Source of the DNA: a virus
Virus record (IMG/VR): IMGVR_UViG_3300042923_000254
Location: 1 to 22,314 of that record
Strand: one strand, 5' to 3'
DNA: 22,314 nucleotides
The position numbers were made by a program, and so were the translations under genes. Shown here in pieces: positions 2,565 through 17,799 of the stretch; positions within the stretch are counted from its first letter, which is position 1, and the number at the start of each line of letters is the position of its first letter. Under the pieces are notes generated by a model. It worked only from the letters and a program-made list of their open reading frames with translations, ran no database searches and was not told the DNA's origin.

Positions 2565-3974
2565 ATGAAAGCTGTCATCTATTCGCGTATCTCGCGTGAC
2601 GAGCAGAGTAAATACTCGATCTCTGAACAAGTTCAAATATGCCAAAAGGAAATGGAAGCTGCCGGACATGAAATCGTGGATATCTTTATCGATGAGGGTT
2701 TTTCGTCCAAGACAATGAAACGGCCAGCTCTGCAAAAGATGTTATCGCAGATTGGACAGAAAAAGTTTGACATCATTTGCGTCTGGAACTCGGACCGGTT
2801 GACTCGTACCACGTTGGACGGACTAACGATGGTGACGACGATGTTTCGGCCGGCTGGGATCGATTTCGTATCGGTTACCGAAGACATAGACACGTCCACA
2901 TCAGACGGTATGATGATGTTCACTATACGGCTTTCTATGGCTCAGAGAGAGCGCGAACGGATTGCAGAACGGGTTATTATGGGACAGATCGGACGAGCCA
3001 AGAAAGGCAAGCGTAATTCGTCTAGCCGCCCATATGGGTACGATGTCGGGGAAGATTTGGCTTTGTTCATCAATGAACGCGAGGCCGAAGTTGTCCGTAA
3101 AATCTACGCCTGGTACATCAAGGGACATGGGAAGAACAAAATAGCAGGTATGCTCAATGAGGAATCAATTCCTACATTAGAAGGATCGTTCTGGCGTGAA
3201 CGGACGATCGGGGATGTGCTTCGGAATATCACTTACACGGGTTCCACTCACTTCAAGCCGAAAAATAGCGAACGTATCGTTATTGAGCACGTACATGAAG
3301 CCATCATTTCCATGGAGACGTTTGAGAAGGCGCAGGCTGTCACGGCCCGTAAACAAGAGGAAACGATGAGCCAATCCAGTTACGACTTCCCGTTCTCGAC
3401 GATCTTAAAATGCGCGGTATGCGGACGTTCCTTTCATGGAAAAAAGAGCAGTCGCGGCGTCCGGTTCTATCGGTGCTCCGGGAAGTATCGTCAAGACCCA
3501 TGCTTTGTCTCGGATATCGCGGAGAACAAGTTGGTAAACATGCTATTCGATTTATCCAAACTCGACCTGGAGGAAAGCAACACGTTTGCTAAGGAAGCGC
3601 CTGAAAAGGACGTATCGAAAGAACGGAAAAAGATTGAAAAGAAACTTGAAGAAAGTTCAAACCGTCGTAGAAACTGGTCTTATGCTATGGGCGATGGAAA
3701 AATGCGATACGAGGATTTCTCTCGGTTAATGGATGAAGAAAACAAACGAGTGGCCGAGTGGGAAAAGCAGTTGACCGAACTTGGGAACTCGGAGGAAAAG
3801 AAAGCGCCGGTTCGATCTCGAAAAGAATTCGCACGGCAGATTGGGGATATCAAGATCAACTGGAGCAAATGGGATCATGAGGAACGGAAGGAAGTCATTC
3901 AAAACCTGTTCAAGCGCATCGCTATCGCGAAAGTACAGGGTGAATGGTTCATAGTTGGGTACGAAGAATTGTAG
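2565..3974 (+). CDS. int: Large serine recombinase (phage integrase)
   Basis: 469-aa site-specific recombinase that integrates and excises the phage between attP and attB. The N-terminal resolvase domain (about 1-145) carries the nucleophile Ser10 in YSRISRDEQ and the arginines of DRLTR (78, 81). Then comes the long helix ending in the recombinase domain (about 150-260, RPYGYD at 155-160), a zinc ribbon with Cys283, 286, 304 and 313 (CAVC ... C ... C), and a charged coiled coil (about 345-420). The length is typical of shorter TP901-1-like integrases, and all landmarks are intact. Start ATG 2565 follows AGGAGGT. Phage genes lie on both sides. Confidence 0.95.
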   Translation: MKAVIYSRISRDEQSKYSISEQVQICQKEMEAAGHEIVDIFIDEGFSSKTMKRPALQKMLSQIGQKKFDIICVWNSDRLTRTTLDGLTMVTTMFRPAGIDFVSVTEDIDTSTSDGMMMFTIRLSMAQRERERIAERVIMGQIGRAKKGKRNSSSRPYGYDVGEDLALFINEREAEVVRKIYAWYIKGHGKNKIAGMLNEESIPTLEGSFWRERTIGDVLRNITYTGSTHFKPKNSERIVIEHVHEAIISMETFEKAQAVTARKQEETMSQSSYDFPFSTILKCAVCGRSFHGKKSSRGVRFYRCSGKYRQDPCFVSDIAENKLVNMLFDLSKLDLEESNTFAKEAPEKDVSKERKKIEKKLEESSNRRRNWSYAMGDGKMRYEDFSRLMDEENKRVAEWEKQLTELGNSEEKKAPVRSRKEFARQIGDIKINWSKWDHEERKEVIQNLFKRIAIAKVQGEWFIVGYEEL

Positions 3975-4445: not shown

Positions 4446-5192
4446 TTATTTGAACCATCCTTCGGCTTTCATGAGCGAAAAGAACTTCTCGAAGTAATTC
4501 AGCGCCCATTGCTCATTGCCGTCGTTCTTATTGACGAGGGAATACATATATTGCGTCTGCTGCGATACAAGGTAAGCATAGCCGCGACGTGCTTCCATTG
4601 TACTAGCCGCATCGATTCGTATTCGGGTGTCCAATACATCGTTACGAAGTTTGTTCATGTCGATCCCCGGGCAAGCCGTCGGGGTAACCTCGCCATGCCC
4701 TTTGATGATCTTCACGTTCGGGAACTGCTCGTGCTGCTGCAGCATCAGGATGACCGCGATTAAGGCCGTTCTATCGTCGTCTGTCATGCCGTCCGTGTAC
4801 TTGTATTCGCCCGATACGCTGACATGAATCGTGTATCCGTTGTTGCTTGGTACGCCGTATTTGAGCGGTAACAGGTCGTTACAGAGGTAGGCCTGACCTC
4901 CACGAATCCAAATGTCATAGGGGAACCCCGGGTCTCCCTTCTCATGATTAACCTTGCTCCCGATATGCCCATTTGCGATCCGTGTCGCTAGTTCGACGTC
5001 CGTCACGCCTTCGAATTTATACTTCGGCAGCGCATCATGGTGTACGATGATCGTCGTGATAGCGTTAGGATTACGATTGCCGCAAAGCTGCTCCCACGTA
5101 TACGCCGGATTGACAGGGATCACGCCGCGAAGGTCGACGATCGGCTTTACATTCAGGTTATTTATTAGATTCGATTGGAATTGTATCTCCAC
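4446..5192 (-). CDS. N-acetylmuramoyl-L-alanine amidase (endolysin)
   Basis: 248-aa zinc amidase of the amidase-2/PGRP type, cutting the amide bond between muramic acid and the stem peptide for host lysis. Visible landmarks: IIVHHDA with His51/His52, GHGEVTPTACPG with His166 and Cys174 (the other zinc ligands), and the core strand HVSVSGEY around 123-130. The C-terminal approx. 60 residues (tyrosine-rich, YAYLVSQQTQYMYSLV) look like a small wall-binding or oligomer region, not a known repeat. The start is GTG 5192, inside the holin gene (35-bp overlap) with no clear ribosome site, so translation is probably coupled to the holin. Last gene of the late operon. Confidence 0.92.
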   Translation of the reverse strand: MEIQFQSNLINNLNVKPIVDLRGVIPVNPAYTWEQLCGNRNPNAITTIIVHHDALPKYKFEGVTDVELATRIANGHIGSKVNHEKGDPGFPYDIWIRGGQAYLCNDLLPLKYGVPSNNGYTIHVSVSGEYKYTDGMTDDDRTALIAVILMLQQHEQFPNVKIIKGHGEVTPTACPGIDMNKLRNDVLDTRIRIDAASTMEARRGYAYLVSQQTQYMYSLVNKNDGNEQWALNYFEKFFSLMKAEGWFK

Positions 5193-5574
5193 TGGCGGCA
5201 GCCCCTCCGTTGTTATTTTTCGTTTTCAGGAAGTCCTTGATTCCACGACCCGTTATATATGCTGCTGCTGCACCGGCGATGTACCATACTTCCTCGTCGC
5301 TCAGTTCGATATCCAGGTATGAAGCAAAGCCAATAATCAGACAGGCGAATACGAGCGTAAATAGCTTCGTACTTCCCCAATTGACCGGCTCGCCTTTCTT
5401 CATCTTCGCAATATCATTTACGATCGCTACCCCAACGAAGTTAACAGACAGCCCGATGGAGGCAATGAGCTGCGTCGGGTTCAAATGCCATCCAAACCGG
5501 TTATTACACGCAATGGCGATCATCGTAATCGTGGATACGAGAAACGACGGAAGCAACCATTTACTATTTGTCAT
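5158..5574 (-). CDS. Phage holin-like membrane protein
   Basis: 138 aa with three clear hydrophobic segments (about 6-23, 35-53, 70-86), a weaker fourth (95-109) and a polar, Asn/Gly/Lys-rich C-terminus. This is a usual holin layout: it would form the membrane lesion that releases or activates the amidase encoded directly downstream. ATG 5574 follows AAGGAG; its ATGA overlaps the stop of the preceding gene. No specific holin family was recognised; the call rests on topology and on position just before the lysin. Confidence 0.8.
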   Translation of the reverse strand: MTNSKWLLPSFLVSTITMIAIACNNRFGWHLNPTQLIASIGLSVNFVGVAIVNDIAKMKKGEPVNWGSTKLFTLVFACLIIGFASYLDIELSDEEVWYIAGAAAAYITGRGIKDFLKTKNNNGGAAASGDTIPIESNK

Positions 5575-5839: not shown

Positions 5840-8800
5840 TTATCTGTTTATTTCTGCTATTGTGCGCGGCTTATTGCCGGTCTGTTGCTCGATGTATTTC
5901 AACAGGTCTTGCAGCTTTTGAAGCTCCTCTACTTGTTGGAAGTATTGAGCTTTATCGGCATCGTATTCCTTAAGGATGGAGCTTATTCCTAAGCCGGGAT
6001 CCCGGAACTTCTTATCTTGATCAGCATCAGATGGAGTTGTAAAGAAGTTGCTTACAGCACGTACCGGCTGGCCTCCAAGTTGTTCCGCAATGTAAGCTGC
6101 AGTCGAATCTATACCACCGAGACTCGCGCCAGCTCCGGGAATCGGGATTCCGAAAAAGTTCGTCGGAATAGAGTACTTCTTTTCCTGTCCTTCGAATTTT
6201 TCAATTGGCTTGTCGAAGAAGAAGCTTCGATTCAACGCCAACTCTGCAGGCAATTTCACAAGAGGTGTTGACGAATCGACGATTGTTTTTAATGGCGAGC
6301 TAAGTTTCGTAAGGTCGCCCACCGGAAGATTCAACCCAAGGAAACGCCCCTTACCCTCGTCGCCAGATACCGGAATAGCGAAGTTCTCCTTCATCCAATC
6401 CGGCACGTTTTCATCTTCAAGCCCAACGGCTTCCTGTGCATTCAGGCGGATCTTATTGACGTTCGCGTACTTTCTTGGATCGTTGATGAATTGCCGTAAT
6501 TGGAATGGTATATTATTTCGCATCCAGCGATAGAATGGCATCGCTCGAGTCATTATTTCGCGCTCAAACGGCGTTGTACGGCTGTAGTCGAATTGCACTT
6601 CGCGGACCTTATTCGCAGCTTGTTCAGCGCTCATTCCCTTATCTCGCGACCATTTGTACAGCGCAAAGCGCATGGCCTGATCGTTAAAGTCACCGAATTG
6701 TTGGGATGACTGAAAGGCGTTCAAAGGGTTTTTAAGATCGCCCAATTCCGTCTTTACCCGATTTCCAAATGTACCATCAAGTTTACTTCGCTTCTCAATG
6801 GTCCGGCGAATCGCTTCTTCCGGTTCTTCGCCACGCCGTGCAAACTCTACAGCAAGTTGTCCCGATGATCCTAACCCTTCCTGCCGAAACTCTCGGAACA
6901 ATGGGGATTCTTTACCGTTGACATAAGCCCGGAATGCTTCTTCGTATCCTTCCTTCGTATACTTCGCCAAGTTCTCCGGGCTCATCCCTGCGACATAGTT
7001 GTTGAACATCGCGCCCGCAATATTTCGAAGGTGGTATGGCACGGAAAACAAGGTCCCGCGCTTCCAGAAACTTTGTGCGGTGTCAAATGCCTTGATGAAG
7101 GAGTTAATGCCCTCGTCGGTAGTAAGCTTCTGGAATCGATCCAGCGCGACCTTGACCGACTTAGTAACGATATACTGGCCCCCGATTTCGTCGGACAATC
7201 CTAGGTCAGCACCGGCATCGTCACGGAGGAACTTATAATTGTTCGTATCGATAACAGTTTGATTTTTCGGCAAATCCGTTACCCGTTCGCCTTCTTTCAA
7301 CTTGCGGGCAAAGTTCGTATTCGATAATACTTGTCTTCGAAAATGTGCCGCATTTGCATACTCGATTAATCTTTTCTGACCAATTGCCGTAGCGAAAAAG
7401 GCATTTGGTTCAAACATTTGCCTTTCCAAGCGTTCGTTTATATCTTCAACGCTCCCGGGTACTTGGCGCGGCTTAACGACGCCTTTGCTGGGCTGTCCTG
7501 TGCCCTTATTCCCTCGGTCAATAGGGCTTATATTTCGTCTGCGTTTGCGCTCCTCGGCGGACAATACGTGTGTCATGTAGCCTTCCAATTCGCCAACGCC
7601 GATACCGTTGTTAGTGGCCCAATCCCTCATTTCATTGTTGGATCGGATGAGGGTTTCCGCCGCCTGACGCACGCCTTGCTCCTGCGAAAGCTCTCTTGCT
7701 GGACGTGGAATTTCCCGCTGCATGGTAATCGGATTTTTCGCGGCATTGCGAAGTGCCGAAACATCGTCTGACAATGATTGTATTTGTGAAATGTTTCCTT
7801 GCTTTTGAATCTTAAGATTATCGCGTAAACTATCTAATTGTTTTTGAAGTTCTTCCCTCCGTTGGAGCAGAAGGTTGAATTTAGGACTTCCACCTACAAC
7901 CTCAAATGCCTTACTTTCTGCTATTTTGTTCAAGTTGGCAGGTTGGTTTTTCTCCGATGTTAGTTTTCTTAATTCAGCGTTTTCTCTAGAAAAATACAAT
8001 CTCCTGATGTCGTTATCTACCTTATTCAAATCATTAACAGTTTGGGTTATGGCTTGGCTGATGTTTCCGATATCCGTAGTTCTCTGTTTCCCAATACCCC
8101 GAATCCGATTGACTGGAACGAATTCACTTTCGCCTTTGAACCGGAATTCCTTCGAACCATTGACGGTCCGTGTTTCTTCGATTTCACTCGTCTTTGAACC
8201 TTTAATCCGTTTTCCTTCCGACGAAAGCTTGTAAGCCTTATCTCCAGATTTCAGGTTTAAAGGATTGACTGATTCAATACGGGTATCACGAATATCTTTA
8301 CCAAGGTCTTCGATTTGCTGACGTTTTGCGTTCGCTGCGTTGGTTAGTTCTTTTCTACTTGTTGTGCGTGTTACACCATCCGGAAATTCGTAGGCTTTCA
8401 CCTCATCAAACTGACGCAACGGCGCTTCCATGATACGTCCGACGTCTGTTCCCTTGTCTAGACCTCCGGCAAGTTTCGCAGCGTCCGCAACGCGCTTCAT
8501 TGCCTCTTCCGTTTGGTAAGATATATTGTTTTCGGCCTTTCGCTTGGATCGTAGAATCGTATCGTCTGAACGTCCCTTCAAATCCTCGCCCAACTTGTAA
8601 TCCGGGACGAACAGGCGACCTAATGCCTCTTTACCACTCTCGGCTGCCGGTCTTGCACGTTCAGCCATAAACGTTGCAAACCCCGGTGATAAACGTTCTA
8701 TTGCCCCGATACCTGACTTTGCAGCGTTCCCAACTCCACGCGCCGCTGTTGATGCACCTCGCGCTAAAACTCCTCCTGGAACATACGTAAGGGGGTCCAA

Positions 8801-9232
8801 AGCGATATCTAATCCAGTACCGAGTGCGAACTTTCCAATCTTGTTTTCCACTCCGAGAGTTTCCGCTAAGTCAGCTCCGCGAGTACGATCAATGCCAGCG
8901 AATCCTCGACCAAATCCACGCAAGGCATTTTCACCTTGAATACCTTCGTTAATTGCATTAACCACACCGGATCCGGGGCGTCCTAGCAATTCCAAAGTAT
9001 CGAAAAAGGCGTTTTGTCCTTGCGGAAGATTGGTCAACTTCTCGAACCAGTTACGCCGGTCGGCGTCTGCTTTGACATAACCGGCGTCCTCGATTCTGCG
9101 TTCTGCATTGGAAATTGAATTGTTAACCTTGCTTACATCGAATGGATTGCTGGATTCTGGAGAGGTGAAGAAAGAACTTGTCTTTTGCGTTCTGTTACGC
9201 TGATTCGGCGTTTCCTCAGCAAAGAATGCCAT
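5840..9232 (-). CDS. Large internal virion / ejection protein, LPD38-like C-terminus
   Basis: 1130 aa, the largest gene. A polar N-terminus is followed by a Gly/Ala/Leu-rich, possibly membrane-active segment (about 130-190, LDIALDPLTYVPGGVLARGA), long helical coiled-coil parts (about 395-500), and a conserved-looking C-terminal half with LFSVPYHLRNIAGAMFNN (about 740) and MPFYRWMRNNIPFQLRQF (about 900). The last two resemble the large polyvalent protein-associated LPD38 type as I remember it. No lysozyme or transglycosylase motif was seen. Size, position after the tail genes and partner gene at 9246 suit an internal protein ejected with the DNA, as gp15/gp16 in T7-like phages. ATG 9232 follows AAGGAG. 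Confidence 0.7.
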   Translation of the reverse strand: MAFFAEETPNQRNRTQKTSSFFTSPESSNPFDVSKVNNSISNAERRIEDAGYVKADADRRNWFEKLTNLPQGQNAFFDTLELLGRPGSGVVNAINEGIQGENALRGFGRGFAGIDRTRGADLAETLGVENKIGKFALGTGLDIALDPLTYVPGGVLARGASTAARGVGNAAKSGIGAIERLSPGFATFMAERARPAAESGKEALGRLFVPDYKLGEDLKGRSDDTILRSKRKAENNISYQTEEAMKRVADAAKLAGGLDKGTDVGRIMEAPLRQFDEVKAYEFPDGVTRTTSRKELTNAANAKRQQIEDLGKDIRDTRIESVNPLNLKSGDKAYKLSSEGKRIKGSKTSEIEETRTVNGSKEFRFKGESEFVPVNRIRGIGKQRTTDIGNISQAITQTVNDLNKVDNDIRRLYFSRENAELRKLTSEKNQPANLNKIAESKAFEVVGGSPKFNLLLQRREELQKQLDSLRDNLKIQKQGNISQIQSLSDDVSALRNAAKNPITMQREIPRPARELSQEQGVRQAAETLIRSNNEMRDWATNNGIGVGELEGYMTHVLSAEERKRRRNISPIDRGNKGTGQPSKGVVKPRQVPGSVEDINERLERQMFEPNAFFATAIGQKRLIEYANAAHFRRQVLSNTNFARKLKEGERVTDLPKNQTVIDTNNYKFLRDDAGADLGLSDEIGGQYIVTKSVKVALDRFQKLTTDEGINSFIKAFDTAQSFWKRGTLFSVPYHLRNIAGAMFNNYVAGMSPENLAKYTKEGYEEAFRAYVNGKESPLFREFRQEGLGSSGQLAVEFARRGEEPEEAIRRTIEKRSKLDGTFGNRVKTELGDLKNPLNAFQSSQQFGDFNDQAMRFALYKWSRDKGMSAEQAANKVREVQFDYSRTTPFEREIMTRAMPFYRWMRNNIPFQLRQFINDPRKYANVNKIRLNAQEAVGLEDENVPDWMKENFAIPVSGDEGKGRFLGLNLPVGDLTKLSSPLKTIVDSSTPLVKLPAELALNRSFFFDKPIEKFEGQEKKYSIPTNFFGIPIPGAGASLGGIDSTAAYIAEQLGGQPVRAVSNFFTTPSDADQDKKFRDPGLGISSILKEYDADKAQYFQQVEELQKLQDLLKYIEQQTGNKPRTIAEINR

Positions 9233-9245
9233 TCGTCACCACTCC

Positions 9246-10883
9246 TTATTGTCCATTCAATGAAGGGTTTTCCTTGCTAATTCGGTCTAGATTGGCTTGA
9301 TCAATCAACTTAGAGAACCCAAGCATTCCATATCCGGCTAAATTCTTAAGCCAGTTTGTATTGAATGCTGAATTCCCGGAAGGTTCCTTTTCATTACTTG
9401 GATTAAGGTTCGGATAGAGCGTATATATAGCTTGCTTCATCCTTTCACCATCTTCCGATTGTTCCGCACCTATCTTTACCTTGTCGTCAATCTGTTTCAA
9501 AAGGTCTTTAGGCTGGGCTTTTCCTGTTGAAAGCATGTCGTACATTGCACTCAAATCCGCTGCATACCGCGGTGTGTTCATGCCTTGTACATCAATGCCG
9601 AATTCTTTCATAAAGTCAGGCATTTTTCCTGTTGCTTTAAACGAATCCAGACCTTGCGAGAACATTCTATCTATCTGCTGATTTTTTTGATTTTGGGCCT
9701 GTGACTCTAATTGCGCTTTGGTTTGTTGTCTATCAAGATCAAGTCGTTCCCGCGCAATCTGGTTACTAACACCTTGTTGCTTGACCTGATTATTGAATTG
9801 CGCTTGCTCCATCGCATAGTTCAGTCCGAAGCGTCGTACATCCTCGTCGAACTTCTGTTTATATTGCTCGTCTGCGATTTGGTCGCGGGCCTGCTTATAT
9901 TCGAATTCTTGGTCATATCGTTGGTCGCCTACTTGATCCCGACCGACTTGATAGTCGAAGTTCCGCTGGTCCGTCCTTGCTTGAAGCGTAGGCACTCCCT
10001 GATAGCTCGCCACATTGCGCGCAGCGTCCGCATAGTCGTTTTCGTACCCGGCCCCAACTTGATCCGCATTGATCCCGAAGCGGGAATAAAGAGCGTTACG
10101 GAGTGCCTCAGCTTGCGATCGGAATCCGGCCATTTGATCGGAAGATACGTTTCCACCCTCTGCCTGTTGCTTCAGCGCAAGGATGTCGCCAAGGATGTTC
10201 CGAGCTTCGGGGTTCAAGTATGTCCCCGTCAACCCGGCTTCGGTCACCCCTTGGTTAAACGTCTGATTCTCCCGCGCCAGTCCCTGATTGAACGATTGAT
10301 TCTGCTGCCCACTCAACAATTGGCTGAGTGCCGATAGGTTTCCGATTTGGTCCTGACCTACGCCGTAATTGTCGAGCATCGCCTGCCGTTGCCTATTCGC
10401 GTCGTCGTTGTAGCGCTGGTATGCTTTCTCAATCATGGTTGGGAGGAGATTCGTCTGCACATCACTTACTGCCCGTTGCTGGATCTGATTTGCCCGGTCT
10501 ACAGCTATAGACGAATTACCGATGCCCCGCGATCCGAGACTAACCATTGCATTGTTCTGCGCCGTTTTCGCGTTCTGCAAAGCTCCGGCGAGTGCAGATT
10601 GATATTGTTGATCCGTATTCGGGTTATAACTAAACGGTTGTGGCGCTGTATACGTAGGCTGTGACGACGTTAGACGCGATGCCAAGGCGTTGTTAACTTG
10701 CCCGATCTGTGAAGTCGGTGACGCGCTGCTGAATCCGCTGAGCGCCTGAGCGAGTGGCGTCTGTCCAGCCGATGTATTCGTTATCGTCTCAGCTCGCGGA
10801 GAAATCATATGCGGATATTGTACGGTCGTGATTTGCTGATCTTTATTGGGTCGTGGAGGCCCGTATGGTTGGGCTGTTGCCAT
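9246..10883 (-). CDS. Glutamine-rich internal virion-like protein
   Basis: 545 aa, extremely rich in Gln, Asn and Ala, low in hydrophobic segments. The N-terminus is Pro/Ser/Thr-rich and disordered (about 1-95); the middle is largely helical with imperfect Gln-rich repeats (about 95-400, e.g. NRQRQAMLDNYGVG, then repeated blocks around NQTFNQG and DYQVGRDQ). Such proteins occur as ejection or internal head proteins in short-tailed phages. The 13-bp gap to the 1130-aa gene implies they are made together. ATG 10883 follows AGGGGTG. Function is by context. Confidence 0.65.
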   Translation of the reverse strand: MATAQPYGPPRPNKDQQITTVQYPHMISPRAETITNTSAGQTPLAQALSGFSSASPTSQIGQVNNALASRLTSSQPTYTAPQPFSYNPNTDQQYQSALAGALQNAKTAQNNAMVSLGSRGIGNSSIAVDRANQIQQRAVSDVQTNLLPTMIEKAYQRYNDDANRQRQAMLDNYGVGQDQIGNLSALSQLLSGQQNQSFNQGLARENQTFNQGVTEAGLTGTYLNPEARNILGDILALKQQAEGGNVSSDQMAGFRSQAEALRNALYSRFGINADQVGAGYENDYADAARNVASYQGVPTLQARTDQRNFDYQVGRDQVGDQRYDQEFEYKQARDQIADEQYKQKFDEDVRRFGLNYAMEQAQFNNQVKQQGVSNQIARERLDLDRQQTKAQLESQAQNQKNQQIDRMFSQGLDSFKATGKMPDFMKEFGIDVQGMNTPRYAADLSAMYDMLSTGKAQPKDLLKQIDDKVKIGAEQSEDGERMKQAIYTLYPNLNPSNEKEPSGNSAFNTNWLKNLAGYGMLGFSKLIDQANLDRISKENPSLNGQ

Positions 10884-12229: not shown

Positions 12230-13678
12230 TTACACAATGGGTTTGGCGTCCTGGACGAGAGATATTTCTTTCATTGTGATGACGCCTGTAAAGTCGTATT
12301 TGATTGTGGCGAAGTTGGTTCGGTACAGTGACCCCGGGATGATTCCGACACGTTGGCTTTCAATTGTAGTCGTGGCCGAATACGTCTGTTGAATGGTGAA
12401 GCCTGACGTTTGTTCCGGGTCCGTGCTGGCCGATACCGTGACAGAGCCACCGGATTCAATATCCATGATGCTCCAGCCTCGTTTGAATACGACCTTTTGG
12501 GAGTACGATGGTGCTCCGAAAACTTTGCTCATCCAGTAACCGGATATAGCCGAACCATTGTCGGTAGCGAGTCCTCCGACCTTCCGCACTTGGCCTTCCA
12601 CACCACCGATGTATAGCGTGTTTTCAATGTTGGTCATGTTGAGTGGTGCAAAATTGCGCCAAACGCTCCATATTTGAAACTCTGTATTGTACTCAAGAAT
12701 CACGTTTGGTTCGGTAGCCCCATCAATGGGGAGACCCACATAAAGCATGCGACCGTCAGTAGACGCACAGCATTTATTTATAGCCGCACTATTAATCCGA
12801 TCCACGAAATTTTGTACGGGTTCAGAGAATGCTTTACTAACGCTAGTACCACCGTCGTACTTGAATATTCCGGTACGGTGGACAAAATAAATTTCTCCGT
12901 TTATAGTCGTTATCGCCTGATTGGATACGGCTCCAATAGAATCATCAATTCGCTTTAAGGTGAAGGCGTCGGCATAAGTTCCGAATAGGTTGTATATCGA
13001 ATCAGGTTTGAAAATGATAAGTCGATTCGGACCATTACGGATACCGCTGATAACTTGACCATCCGATGATTCTACCTCGATAAATCCGGGGTTAGAATCG
13101 TCGTCCGGGTCAGGCGCGGTCGTCCAGTTTGTTCCTACTCGATACTCGGAAAAGTGAAGCGTATTTTTGACCGCGCCCCATAATCGTTCGATGTAGGTTT
13201 CGATGAAGTTCAGTCCGCTCGGCGCATCGGTCAAATCCTGTACCGTTGATCCGTCGTATCGCTTCACCGGGTCCGTTCCATTTGCACCAATTAGGTTAAT
13301 ATCCGGGAATCCGCCTTGGAAGTTCGTGAACGACCAATTCGCAGTTGTGTTGAGCGATCCACCGCCCGTTACAGCGCTCCATGAACCTCCGCTATACTTG
13401 TACCATTGCCCATTCGACACGGCGTTCAATTCGCTGTTTTTCCAAGCGTACAGACCCAATACTCGAGCAGACAAAGCGGACCCGAGCACAGAAAATCCCG
13501 GCCTCGTTTTGATGACCGGGAAATCGGATGTTGTCATATTGGAGATATCTGCAGCAAACGTCGGATCGATGGACATGGGGTCAAGCCGATTGACGCCGCG
13601 AAACTGCCGGATCGTGAACGTCGGATTCGGATTCGACTGGCGTAATTCCAACGGCGGGTACTGAATTAATCGCCTCAT
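12230..13678 (-). CDS. Tail hub/stopper protein (T7 gp12 or P22 gp10-like)
   Basis: 482 aa, all-beta by residue pattern. The N-terminal signature FRGVNRLDPMSIDPTFAAD (about 28-46), followed by ISNMTTSDFPVIKTRPG, is what short-tailed phage nozzle or DNA-stabilisation proteins carry (gene products that close the portal channel). Later repeated beta segments (NGEIYFVHRTGIFKYDG, NTLYIGGVEGQVRKVGG) suggest a propeller-like body. ATG 13678 overlaps the stop of the adaptor gene as ATGA, so these two partners are translationally coupled, as expected for tail-tube A/B pairs. Confidence 0.7.
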   Translation of the reverse strand: MRRLIQYPPLELRQSNPNPTFTIRQFRGVNRLDPMSIDPTFAADISNMTTSDFPVIKTRPGFSVLGSALSARVLGLYAWKNSELNAVSNGQWYKYSGGSWSAVTGGGSLNTTANWSFTNFQGGFPDINLIGANGTDPVKRYDGSTVQDLTDAPSGLNFIETYIERLWGAVKNTLHFSEYRVGTNWTTAPDPDDDSNPGFIEVESSDGQVISGIRNGPNRLIIFKPDSIYNLFGTYADAFTLKRIDDSIGAVSNQAITTINGEIYFVHRTGIFKYDGGTSVSKAFSEPVQNFVDRINSAAINKCCASTDGRMLYVGLPIDGATEPNVILEYNTEFQIWSVWRNFAPLNMTNIENTLYIGGVEGQVRKVGGLATDNGSAISGYWMSKVFGAPSYSQKVVFKRGWSIMDIESGGSVTVSASTDPEQTSGFTIQQTYSATTTIESQRVGIIPGSLYRTNFATIKYDFTGVITMKEISLVQDAKPIV

Positions 13679-14238
13679 GCCGTCTCACGTCCTTGGTAAT
13701 TTTGCGCCGCAATGTTAAGGGCTTGTCGGTATTGTTGACCGAAGTTGCTCGCTTGCTCAATGTCGTTCTGAGCTTCAGCGATGTACTGGCAAAGCCCCAA
13801 TACGTAGATGTAATGGTACTCTGGAGGAGCATCTGGCGTCTGCGCAGTTGATGTAAGGTTAGTCGTTGCAGTCCTATGGTATCTGACTAATCCCTGCACC
13901 CCCGAGCTTGACGGCGCAGCGGACAGCGCGAGCGTCTTACTCGTATCGTTGAATGTGAACCAATTGTGTACCGGTTGTATGTCCTGATAGTTCAGGGAAT
14001 CGAACTTCAGCCGGCCTATGATGACCTTATCCATGTTCTTCTCGCGTAGTTCTGTTCCCGATAAGGTGTACGTTTTCTGACCAGACACGGACGTAAAGAA
14101 TACCGTTTGAGGAATTTTCACGGTATTAAAAAAGTCCTGATTGATATTATTCAACCAAGACACTTGCGTCGGCGTTCCGTATTCGTGTTGGATCATGCTC
14201 AGGGCTTCATCAATGATTTGTTGGATGGTAAGACCCAC
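13675..14238 (-). CDS. Second head-to-tail adaptor-like protein
   Basis: 187 aa from GTG 14238, chosen because GAGGGGTG stands 6 nt upstream; a longer TTG form (14259) would overlap the ribosome site. Helical N-terminus (GLTIQQIIDEALSMIQHEYG), a central beta part (SGQKTYTLSGTE), then PPEYHYIYVLGLCQYIAEAQ and a Tyr/Gln-rich end helix. This order of helices, 'GQ-x-Y-x-L' strand and PPEYH helix is seen in T7 gp11/P22 gp4-type adaptors and also in the 17194-17799 product. Coupled to the stopper gene downstream. It forms the ring below the portal, or a second ring. Confidence 0.65.
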   Translation of the reverse strand: MGLTIQQIIDEALSMIQHEYGTPTQVSWLNNINQDFFNTVKIPQTVFFTSVSGQKTYTLSGTELREKNMDKVIIGRLKFDSLNYQDIQPVHNWFTFNDTSKTLALSAAPSSSGVQGLVRYHRTATTNLTSTAQTPDAPPEYHYIYVLGLCQYIAEAQNDIEQASNFGQQYRQALNIAAQNYQGRETA

Positions 14239-14263
14239 GATCTTCACCCCTCGTGTCAAAAGT

Positions 14264-14305
14264 AAAAAGCACCCCCGAACAGTTAGAAAAAACTGCGGTG
14301 GTGCT
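14264..14305 (-). terminator. Terminator of the acetyltransferase cassette
   Basis: Minus strand: AGCACC (14305-14300) pairs with GGTGCT (14273-14268), with an inner CAGTT/AACTG stem, followed by TTTTTA. It overlaps the 3' end of the 44-aa gene and separates the cassette from the second adaptor gene. Confidence 0.8.
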
Positions 14306-14417
14306 TCATTTTTTGGTGGTGATATTCAAACGATGCCGTTTGCCATTTGCTCTTACGCTTCAGGATTCGTCTCACTATTCGGTAATACCCATAGGCAAGG
14401 ATATGGTATATTTTCAT
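14283..14417 (-). CDS. Small very basic protein, 44 aa
   Basis: ATG 14417 follows GAAAGGA, which lies in the last codons of the acetyltransferase gene. The start is 5 nt downstream of that gene's stop (TGA 14424-14422). The product (MKIYHILAYGYYRIVRRILK, then many Lys, Arg and His) is strongly cationic with an amphipathic N-terminus. It could be membrane-associated or nucleic-acid-binding. No family recognised. It lies inside the promoter-to-terminator cassette with the acetyltransferase and ends within its terminator. Confidence 0.5.
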   Translation of the reverse strand: MKIYHILAYGYYRIVRRILKRKSKWQTASFEYHHQKMKHHRSFF

Positions 14418-14421
14418 AATA

Positions 14422-15111
14422 TCATATCCTTTCTTTCAACCAATTAATGTTCTCCTTTACGACTTTCGCTGGGCTTCCGGCTAATATAACATTTCCTGTT
14501 TCAAACGATTTTGTAACAACCGCCCCGGTCCCTACAATGCTATTGGACGGGACCGACGAGCCCTTTAAGACGGTTGTTCTGTTACCCAACCATACATGAT
14601 CTCCTATTATAACATCCATTGCCAGGTTTATGCGGACCCCATTCATATCTACTATGGAGTGACTGTCTCCTGTGCGGATGATTACATCAGATGAAAACAG
14701 GCAGTCCCGTCCTATTATTACTTTCTTGCCTTCAGTAACGGCTATATGTGTATACCCACAAATGGCCGTTGAATCTCCTATCAGTATCGTGTTGTCACTG
14801 TCTTCGATATAAAAGTCACCCTTTTCGGCGCGGACTCTTTCCCCGATGACTATTTCATTGTTATTTCCATAAATAGTAAACGAACAATTGTGTAAATAAC
14901 TCATTTTTTGAATCGTAACTCGGTTATTATTTCCAACAATTTGAATTTTAGTTCTATTCAAAAAACCACGATTTAAACCACTGATTTCGTTTCCCTTCCC
15001 GCGAACTTTTACTCGATTTAACCCAATGGTTTTATTGAATATCACGGACATGGTGGTTTGCATTGATGGATATTTCGTAAGGTAGTCTCTGCCCATATGT
15101 AATATCGACAA
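14422..15111 (-). CDS. Left-handed beta-helix acetyltransferase (WbbJ/NodL-like)
   Basis: 229 aa. Hexapeptide-repeat turns run through the protein (IQIVGNNNRVTI, DNTILIGDSTAI, KKVIIGRDCLFS). The C-terminal part has the sugar O-acetyltransferase signature: SSDVIIRTGDSHSIVD with His151 as the likely catalytic base, then VWLGNRTTVLKGSSVPSNSI and AGSPAKVV. Such enzymes move acetyl groups from acetyl-CoA to surface polysaccharide or lipid-linked sugars. Start TTG 15111 lies 7 nt after GGGAGGTG; ATG 15096 is an alternative. It has its own -35-like element upstream, and the region is visibly AT-richer than its late-gene neighbours. Not a structural gene; best seen as lysogenic-conversion cargo. Confidence 0.85.
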   Translation of the reverse strand: MSILHMGRDYLTKYPSMQTTMSVIFNKTIGLNRVKVRGKGNEISGLNRGFLNRTKIQIVGNNNRVTIQKMSYLHNCSFTIYGNNNEIVIGERVRAEKGDFYIEDSDNTILIGDSTAICGYTHIAVTEGKKVIIGRDCLFSSDVIIRTGDSHSIVDMNGVRINLAMDVIIGDHVWLGNRTTVLKGSSVPSNSIVGTGAVVTKSFETGNVILAGSPAKVVKENINWLKERI

Positions 15112-15146
15112 AGCACTACACCTCCCCTTGACGATTGGATAACTTA

Positions 15147-15176
15147 ACCATCACATGTAAAGGGGTATATTGTCAA
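15147..15176 (-). promoter_or_regulatory. Moron-type promoter before the acetyltransferase
   Basis: Minus strand: perfect TTGACA (15176-15171), 18-bp spacer, and TGTGATGGT, an extended but weak -10 (GATGGT 15152-15147). In the transcript CCCCTT (15166-15161) can pair with AAGGGG just before the ribosome site, so the site may be partly masked. Confidence 0.45.
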
Positions 15177-15179
15177 TAG

Positions 15180-17193: not shown

Positions 17194-17799
17194 TCACCAC
17201 CCCGTTACACTTATAATTTGTTGTGGAATAGGATCAATCTGGCTTGTTCTGAATTGATTCAGCAATTCGATATACCGGCCCATGTATTCGTTGCGTTGCT
17301 GTCCTTCTACAATGTCCGCCACGACGCCGTAAACGAGCAGCATGTGATATTCTTCGTTCAGTTCGGGAGTTGCGTCCATGGTGTTAATATCGAGGTCAGT
17401 AGGAAGGTATCGGCGGATCACTTGCAGACCTTCCGCGTAGTCCTCTGTTGGTGTAGGCCATATGCCCATCGTGTCGCGTAGAAGGTAATAGTACGGGGAT
17501 TTGGAGTATTCCCCAACTCGCCCTTTTCGCAACGTCCGGCGATGCCCGTTTGTGATTCCGTCCCATGGTCCGTTAAAGAATTCGTTGTATATAACGACTT
17601 CTTGTATATCTTGCCACGGGAAAGATATTGGATATTGTGATTGTCCAGTGATAATATCCCATGTACTCAAGTCTGAATCTTTCACATACAGCCGAAATAA
17701 CTGGTTCTGAAGGTTATTTACCTTCCGTGTTACCGATTCATCCGTGAGCGTATGTCCTGTTCTTTCTGCAATATCATCCAATATTTCACGAAGATACAT
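17194..17799 (-). CDS. Head-to-tail connector/adaptor protein
   Basis: 201 aa. A helical N-terminus (LREILDDIAERTGHTLTDES), a beta core (TGQSQYPISFPWQDI), a proline-rich strand (MGIWPTPTEDY), then NEEYHMLLVYGVVADIVEGQ and a terminal helix. The pattern is that of gp11/gp4-like ring adaptors and parallels the product of 13675-14238. It is placed after the small head genes and before the tailspike. ATG 17799 follows GAGGTG. It probably docks on the portal and completes the head. Confidence 0.7.
   Translation of the reverse strand: MYLREILDDIAERTGHTLTDESVTRKVNNLQNQLFRLYVKDSDLSTWDIITGQSQYPISFPWQDIQEVVIYNEFFNGPWDGITNGHRRTLRKGRVGEYSKSPYYYLLRDTMGIWPTPTEDYAEGLQVIRRYLPTDLDINTMDATPELNEEYHMLLVYGVVADIVEGQQRNEYMGRYIELLNQFRTSQIDPIPQQIISVTGW

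Follow-up and report, generated by a model that had tools for sequence, protein, structure and literature searches.

Why does a phage keep a gene for a sugar O-acetyltransferase among its virion genes, directly behind the gene for its tailspike? The question is raised by a virus record of 22,314 bases, which comes without a host genome and is called here the window. The late genes of this DNA lie on the minus strand, in the order adaptor 1, tailspike, acetyltransferase, a gene for a 44-aa protein, adaptor 2 and a 482-aa virion protein. The features used in the analysis are the following.

17194-17799, minus strand: adaptor 1, SU10-type, 201 aa, a backbone gene upstream of the spike (Pfam SU10_adaptor 3.4e-13; 92% identity in the sister phage L008)
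15180-17192, minus strand: tailspike / receptor-binding protein, 670 aa, with a conserved virion-binding N-terminus and a variable middle
15147-15176, minus strand: candidate promoter scored with a sigma-A matrix; -35 TTGACA at 15176-15171, an 18-nt spacer, then TG and GATGGT at 15152-15147 as a weak -10
15112-15179, minus strand: leader of 68 nt; base pairing is possible between its 5' half and the Shine-Dalgarno/start region
14422-15111, minus strand: O-acetyltransferase, 229 aa, left-handed beta-helix, a relative of NeuO and OatWY (Pfam, PDB matches, catalytic residues)
14283-14417, minus strand: basic protein of 44 aa that belongs to the backbone and lies outside the exchanged unit (conservation in L008 and in prophage L102)
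14266-14307, minus strand: intrinsic terminator with a T run behind it; it overlaps the 44-aa gene at its 3' end (fold energy, conservation)
13675-14259, minus strand: adaptor 2, SU10-type, start probably GTG at 14238 (Pfam SU10_adaptor 1.5e-11)
12230-13678, minus strand: virion structural protein, 482 aa, the anchor for the slot survey (phrog_3287, 1.2e-23)

The spike, the acetyltransferase and the 44-aa gene all lie within the SU10-type pair, which agrees with the insertion between two adaptor genes proposed in a sequence-only reading of this DNA; many relatives have one adaptor only. Since repressor-like genes are present at the left end of the window and a serine recombinase is encoded at 2565-3974, the phage is probably temperate. 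The recombinase is of the large serine type, related to CcrB and XisF, and is likely the phage integrase. The hosts are probably Paenibacillus-like or Paenibacillales-like bacteria; the closest cellular relatives of the capsid protein are found in a Paenibacillus lutrae prophage (75%) and in one more genome of the same order (77%).

The family of the enzyme can be read directly from its sequence. The gene starts with TTG and is preceded by the Shine-Dalgarno sequence AGGGGAGG at 15128-15121. The 229-aa product carries a Pfam Hexapep domain (1.4e-6, over the cut-off). Its best matches among solved structures in the PDB are OatWY, the capsule O-acetyltransferase of meningococci (3e-32 over residues 35-226), and CUS-3 NeuO, an E. 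coli K1 prophage enzyme (9e-28); both are far ahead of maltose acetyltransferase (4e-10). The same matches confirm a hexapeptide left-handed beta-helix acyltransferase and support the sugar O-acetyltransferase that had been claimed. A defence-system protein was ruled out, with no match in PADLOC. The AlphaFold model of the enzyme is poor (pLDDT 61), and a Foldseek search with that model lists NeuO and OatWY with no significance.

The catalytic residues of OatWY are His121 and Trp145 (PMC3046976). His151 and Trp174 of the window enzyme align with them, so the catalytic pair is kept. Among the remaining conserved active-site residues, as read from the OatWY alignment, Trp195 alone is retained (as Trp224), while Met108 is replaced by Leu138, Arg148 by Asn177 and Arg197 by Lys226. 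The three residues that are replaced comprise the Met in the active site of OatWY and NeuO and the two Arg that are tied to sialic acid. With these three exchanged, the substrate is not predictable from the family, and a specificity for sialic acid is not implied.

The genomic surroundings of related genes point to the kind of substrate. Three cellular relatives of the enzyme were examined, and both intact ones sit in surface-glycan loci, whose members were named by reading their translations: one has LCP, capsule-export-like and KDO-synthesis-like neighbours and the other LicD-like neighbours. The third, at about 9133-9624 of the chromosomal locus L058, stands alone, contains stop codons and is apparently decaying. 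Because the cellular relatives lie in glycan loci, and because the slot behind the spike in related phages holds acyltransferase-3 or Wzy_C genes, the enzyme most likely O-acetylates a host surface glycan, with a polysaccharide as the putative substrate. Hexapeptide enzymes have many substrates, and the acetyl group could instead be passed to a phage glycan, a small sugar or an antibiotic such as streptogramin. Maltose and streptogramin acetyltransferases do appear among the NCBIfam matches of the window enzyme, but all of them fall far below the cut-off. OatWY and NeuO are preferred over maltose acetyltransferase by 20 orders of magnitude and the slot partners in relatives are all glycan enzymes, which makes such a substrate very improbable.

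We compared the locus with that of the sister phage L008, which has 99% identity to the window in the capsid protein and 83% in the spike. In exactly the same place L008 carries an acyltransferase-3 gene (PF01757, 1.5e-29), unrelated to the hexapeptide enzyme. As far as the spike stop codon the two phages have a nucleotide identity of 0.81, which falls to chance through the leader and the enzyme gene and is 0.85 from the 44-aa gene on; the window leader has no alignable counterpart in L008. The break of homology at the spike stop and its return at the 44-aa gene define the exchanged unit, namely the leader plus the enzyme.

The elements downstream of the enzyme are resident. The 44-aa protein is 82% identical in L008, with a dN/dS of 0.076 (purifying selection), and a 43-aa homologue stands behind the Wzy gene of prophage L102; this small protein therefore accompanies three unrelated enzymes. 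It is thus a real gene, as the sequence-only reading had assumed, but it is rejected as a member of the cassette into which it had been placed, since it stays where it is in L008 when the enzyme is swapped. The strong terminator that had been noticed behind it is also real (-20.5 kcal/mol, z -4.8, reached by 0 of 200 shuffles) and is kept in the sister phage (z -4.05); a simple scan of the window did not list it. The gene thus has the terminator expected of a moron, yet this terminator is backbone and lies outside the exchanged unit. The view that the whole stretch from promoter to terminator is exchanged as one piece has to be given up, as only the leader and the enzyme are swapped.

A more specific proposal was that of a matched pair, in which the enzyme alters exactly the polymer that is bound by the phage's own spike and both genes move as one block. 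The gene does lie directly behind the spike in the window, in L008, in L003 and in five Wzy loci, and the prophages L103 and L105 co-inherit their spikes (85%) and their Wzy genes (73%). Between the window and L008 it is the middle of the spike and not its ends that diverges, and here the enzyme differs too. In A. baumannii prophages, the C-terminus of a depolymerase appears to have been transferred along with wzy (PMC13228068). Against this, the window and L008 have the same spike family with unrelated enzymes, and phage L003 combines an acetyltransferase of 60% identity with a spike unrelated to that of the window; it follows that spike and enzyme are not tied as a rule. The exchange boundary also falls exactly between the spike stop codon and the enzyme leader. 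Block transfer as a rule was therefore rejected on the L008 boundary and the L003 spike and is retained for the single exception, L103 and L105. A lack of any link between enzyme and spike type, which the sequence-only reading had named as evidence against itself, is thus seen in part among the relatives; the position behind the spike, however, is kept. Together, these results leave strict matching of enzyme and spike a rather doubtful reading. In a search for more copies of this phage, scans of viral contigs with the spike, the 482-aa protein, both enzymes and the adaptor returned only the sister phage and L003, and a scan with the capsid protein found more distant relatives.

The spike itself has a modular appearance. 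Over the N-terminal ~150 aa it has 51-54% identity to spikes in which GDSL, pectate-lyase or beta-helix domains are found. Compared with the sister spike, the identity drops to 0.54 at residues 401-460, against 0.88-0.93 on the flanks, so that the middle is the most diverged part. A Pfam search gave the window spike no match of its own, and a phrog search gave a weak match to a pre-neck appendage protein (2e-5). The AlphaFold model is poor (pLDDT 30), and no PDB match was found for the spike. No spike homologue was detected at 1e-10 in 399 class-level genomes, in a search that had no positive control. The acetyltransferase gene has a GC content of 0.40 and is more AT-rich than the adaptors (0.45 and 0.48), as had been claimed, but the spike is equally AT-rich (0.41). 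In the prophage L084, in which the slot is empty, the spike (7470-9503) combines the conserved N-terminus with a C-terminal GDSL/SGNH esterase domain (3e-22). This could be a deacetylating spike, and the domain would agree with a receptor that is acetylated in these phages.

Next we surveyed the slot behind the spike with the 482-aa virion protein as an anchor. The anchor was found in 11 of 104 genomes at the family level and in 24 of 395 at the order level. This gave 30 loci in total, mostly from Paenibacillales, including the window, the sister phage and P. lutrae; one locus is cut at a contig end. A glycan enzyme occupies the slot in seven of the 30 loci: the acetyltransferase of the window, the acyltransferase-3 of L008 and five Wzy-like polymerases or ligases, one of them weak. 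The Paenibacillales Wzy cases are annotated by similarity to Wzy_C alone. This domain is encoded immediately after the spike gene in L083 (1e-10), L102 (2.5e-20), L103 (5.6e-18) and L105 (1.1e-15); the slot gene of L117 (6e-4) is below the Pfam cut-off. All five are chromosomal prophages, and the Wzy genes of L103 and L105 lie on the strand opposite to the late genes. A recognised glycan enzyme is absent from the slot of the other 23 loci. The gene is thus absent from relatives, as expected of a moron, being replaced in L008 and missing in L084 and L081, where adaptor 2 comes immediately after the spike; adaptor 2 orthologues in loci with an empty slot have about 45-50% identity.

Some of the slot genes are accompanied by small neighbours. 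In L103 (1850-2124) and L105 (8492-8694) a gene for a 59-aa ribbon-helix-helix-like regulator precedes the antisense Wzy gene. A promoter-like sequence of L103, TTGCCT-17-TATCAT, shares bases with the palindrome GATACATAATGTATC, which suggests an autoregulated conversion operon. In L083 a 75-aa probable membrane protein (5068-5295) is encoded between the spike and Wzy, downstream of a leader that contains a perfect extended -10, TGATATAAT.

The survey bears on whether the position of the gene has a meaning. The acetyltransferase could be a general fitness gene of the lysogen that changes the surface for reasons of predation, desiccation or biofilm formation, in which case the site would merely be a harmless insertion point between late genes. 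The two cellular relatives in capsule or glycan loci are in line with such a role, as is the fact that most relatives are without any slot gene. However, of the polytopic ORFs detected by an unbiased scan of all 30 loci, six lie in the slot and only one elsewhere, an ORF antisense to the late genes of L102 that is probably spurious. The occurrence of four independent Wzy loci at the slot has a chance of about 2e-4. Polytopic slot genes are confined to the border behind the spike and absent from the others, which suggests that the position matters, and we consider a position-independent fitness gene unlikely. The same membrane-ORF scan found no enzyme in such a slot in clostridial relatives that share only the capsid genes.

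When the gene is expressed is a separate question. The TTGACA promoter claimed for it is plausible but weaker than had been stated. The hexamer lies three bases past the spike stop codon (15182-15180), but the -10 is weak. The sigma-A matrix used for scoring was built by ourselves, with significance estimated from 500 shuffles. With this matrix the TTGACA-18 nt-TG-GATGGT arrangement is the second best site on the whole minus strand and is equalled in 10 of 500 shuffles. A usable -10 box at a 17-nt spacer from TTGACA was not found, and the site is missing from the output of a stricter first-pass promoter scan of the window. In L003, the leader in the gap between the spike and the 60% identical enzyme contains a strong near-consensus promoter, which none of 500 shuffles reached.

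The window leader folds with -23.2 kcal/mol (z -2.35). Opening of the Shine-Dalgarno sequence costs 9 kcal/mol, compared with about 4 kcal/mol if the RNA starts after 15160; 38 of 300 upstream shuffles are equal in this respect. As a translational switch the hairpin is a weak candidate, given this proportion of shuffles and a sister leader that is devoid of such a fold. No Rfam match to an RNA element was found in the leader. That the fold blocks translation of read-through late mRNA is a lead only.

These data are relevant for a scenario in which the enzyme is a late lytic protein, transcribed with the tail genes, that acetylates surface glycans late in infection, which would keep progeny phages from being lost to debris or to neighbours that are already infected. 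The gene lies inside the late operon on the same strand, the -10 of its promoter is weak, and the related enzyme of Enterococcus phage EH-TP1 is encoded among tail and holin genes; the leader that can fold over the Shine-Dalgarno sequence adds weakly to this side. The gene does have a leader of its own with a promoter-like site, however, and a conserved terminator behind it. The antisense slot genes of L103 and L105 cannot belong to the late operon. These genes, together with the strong promoter in the L003 leader, lend indirect support to expression apart from the late genes, and an exclusively late role appears improbable.

The closest parallel is found in phage CUS-3, whose NeuO is the main phage relative of the window enzyme and whose gene order is endosialidase spike, neuO and int. 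In both phages the gene directly behind the tailspike gene (siaK1 in CUS-3), and in the same direction, encodes a left-handed beta-helix enzyme from one clade of capsule O-acetyltransferases, with the catalytic His and Trp. The neuO gene of CUS-3 adjoins int and contains phase-variable heptad repeats. The window gene, in contrast, has no such repeats, lies inside the virion cluster between the adaptors, with the recombinase more than 10 kb away, and encodes an enzyme with different residues at the sialic-acid contacts.

Tailspike-adjacent conversion genes are a classic feature of Gram-negative P22-like phages. The best phage matches of the L008 acyltransferase-3 are the O-acetyltransferase of Sf101 and the O-antigen acetylase (GtrC) of BTP1, both of them acyltransferase-3 enzymes encoded beside a tail or tailspike gene. 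As in these phages, and in P22 and epsilon34 with their gtrABC genes, glycan genes of unrelated types are interchangeable beside a modular spike with a conserved N-terminus; in the present group they encode an O-acetyltransferase, an acyltransferase-3 or a Wzy_C protein. In P22-like phages the conversion genes run convergently to the tailspike gene and lie close to int, between tailspike and attP/int, and the hosts are Gram-negative. In the window the gene lies between spike and adaptor 2, within the late gene order and next to a resident 44-aa gene, and the hosts are Gram-positive. By analogy, the window gene is of the same kind as the P22-like conversion genes, but in Gram-positive phages and with a slot that is part of the virion gene order and does not adjoin int. 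It is reported that gtr clusters move between phage types (PMC2629481) and that P22 GtrABC blocks adsorption (PMC10883804).

Other systems share single aspects. The wzyPh prophages of A. baumannii combine a tailspike depolymerase with a capsule-changing Wzy, for which protection against close relatives was proposed (PMC13228068); they resemble the Wzy loci of our survey, although their capsule is Gram-negative. TarP of staphylococcal prophages, a wall teichoic acid glycosyltransferase, changes a surface glycopolymer (PMC9650247) and is likewise a Gram-positive prophage gene, albeit of another enzyme class and for another polymer. EH-TP1 has a 36% identical hexapeptide transferase, whose gene follows immediately on a tail gene with the annotation phosphodiester glycosidase-like; that enzyme differs by a long C-terminal extension and by its location between tail and holin genes. 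In the literature searched (open-licence papers) we found no report of a spike-adjacent glycan slot in Gram-positive phages.

The explanation that we consider likely is a lysogenic-conversion slot behind the tailspike. The acetyltransferase looks like an exchangeable lock-changing gene, because relatives carry quite different sugar-modifying enzymes, or nothing, at the same spot. The enzyme, an O-acetyltransferase of the NeuO/OatWY kind, would act in the cytoplasm with acetyl-CoA as donor and would be expressed in the lysogen at least partly from the promoter in its own leader. It would O-acetylate a surface or capsule-type polysaccharide of the host, and the changed glycan would hinder adsorption of phages that read the unmodified polymer, including close relatives, which is the most likely benefit. 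We infer the expression in the lysogen, the polysaccharide substrate and the effect on adsorption, whereas the enzyme family, the catalytic residues, the position, the exchange boundaries, the presence of unrelated glycan enzymes at this position and the empty slots follow from the sequence. The leader and the gene would be exchanged independently of most of the spike, with the 44-aa gene and the terminator remaining in place.

A wider idea, which we put forward tentatively, is that temperate phages of Paenibacillales keep a dedicated slot between the spike gene and the next virion gene for acetyltransferases of two unrelated folds or for Wzy-like polymerases, with their own leaders and, in some phages, the 44-aa protein as a helper, and that a rapid turnover of enzymes in this slot is driven by selection against re-adsorption of phages with the same spike. 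If this is true, unrelated enzymes that replace one another at a single defined site in Gram-positive phages, as in P22-like ones, would speak for convergent selection towards a changed receptor. The natural pairs with the same spike and different enzymes, or with the same enzyme and different spikes, would allow a direct test of receptor masking, and in unannotated phages the slot could be searched for enzymes that act on surface glycans.
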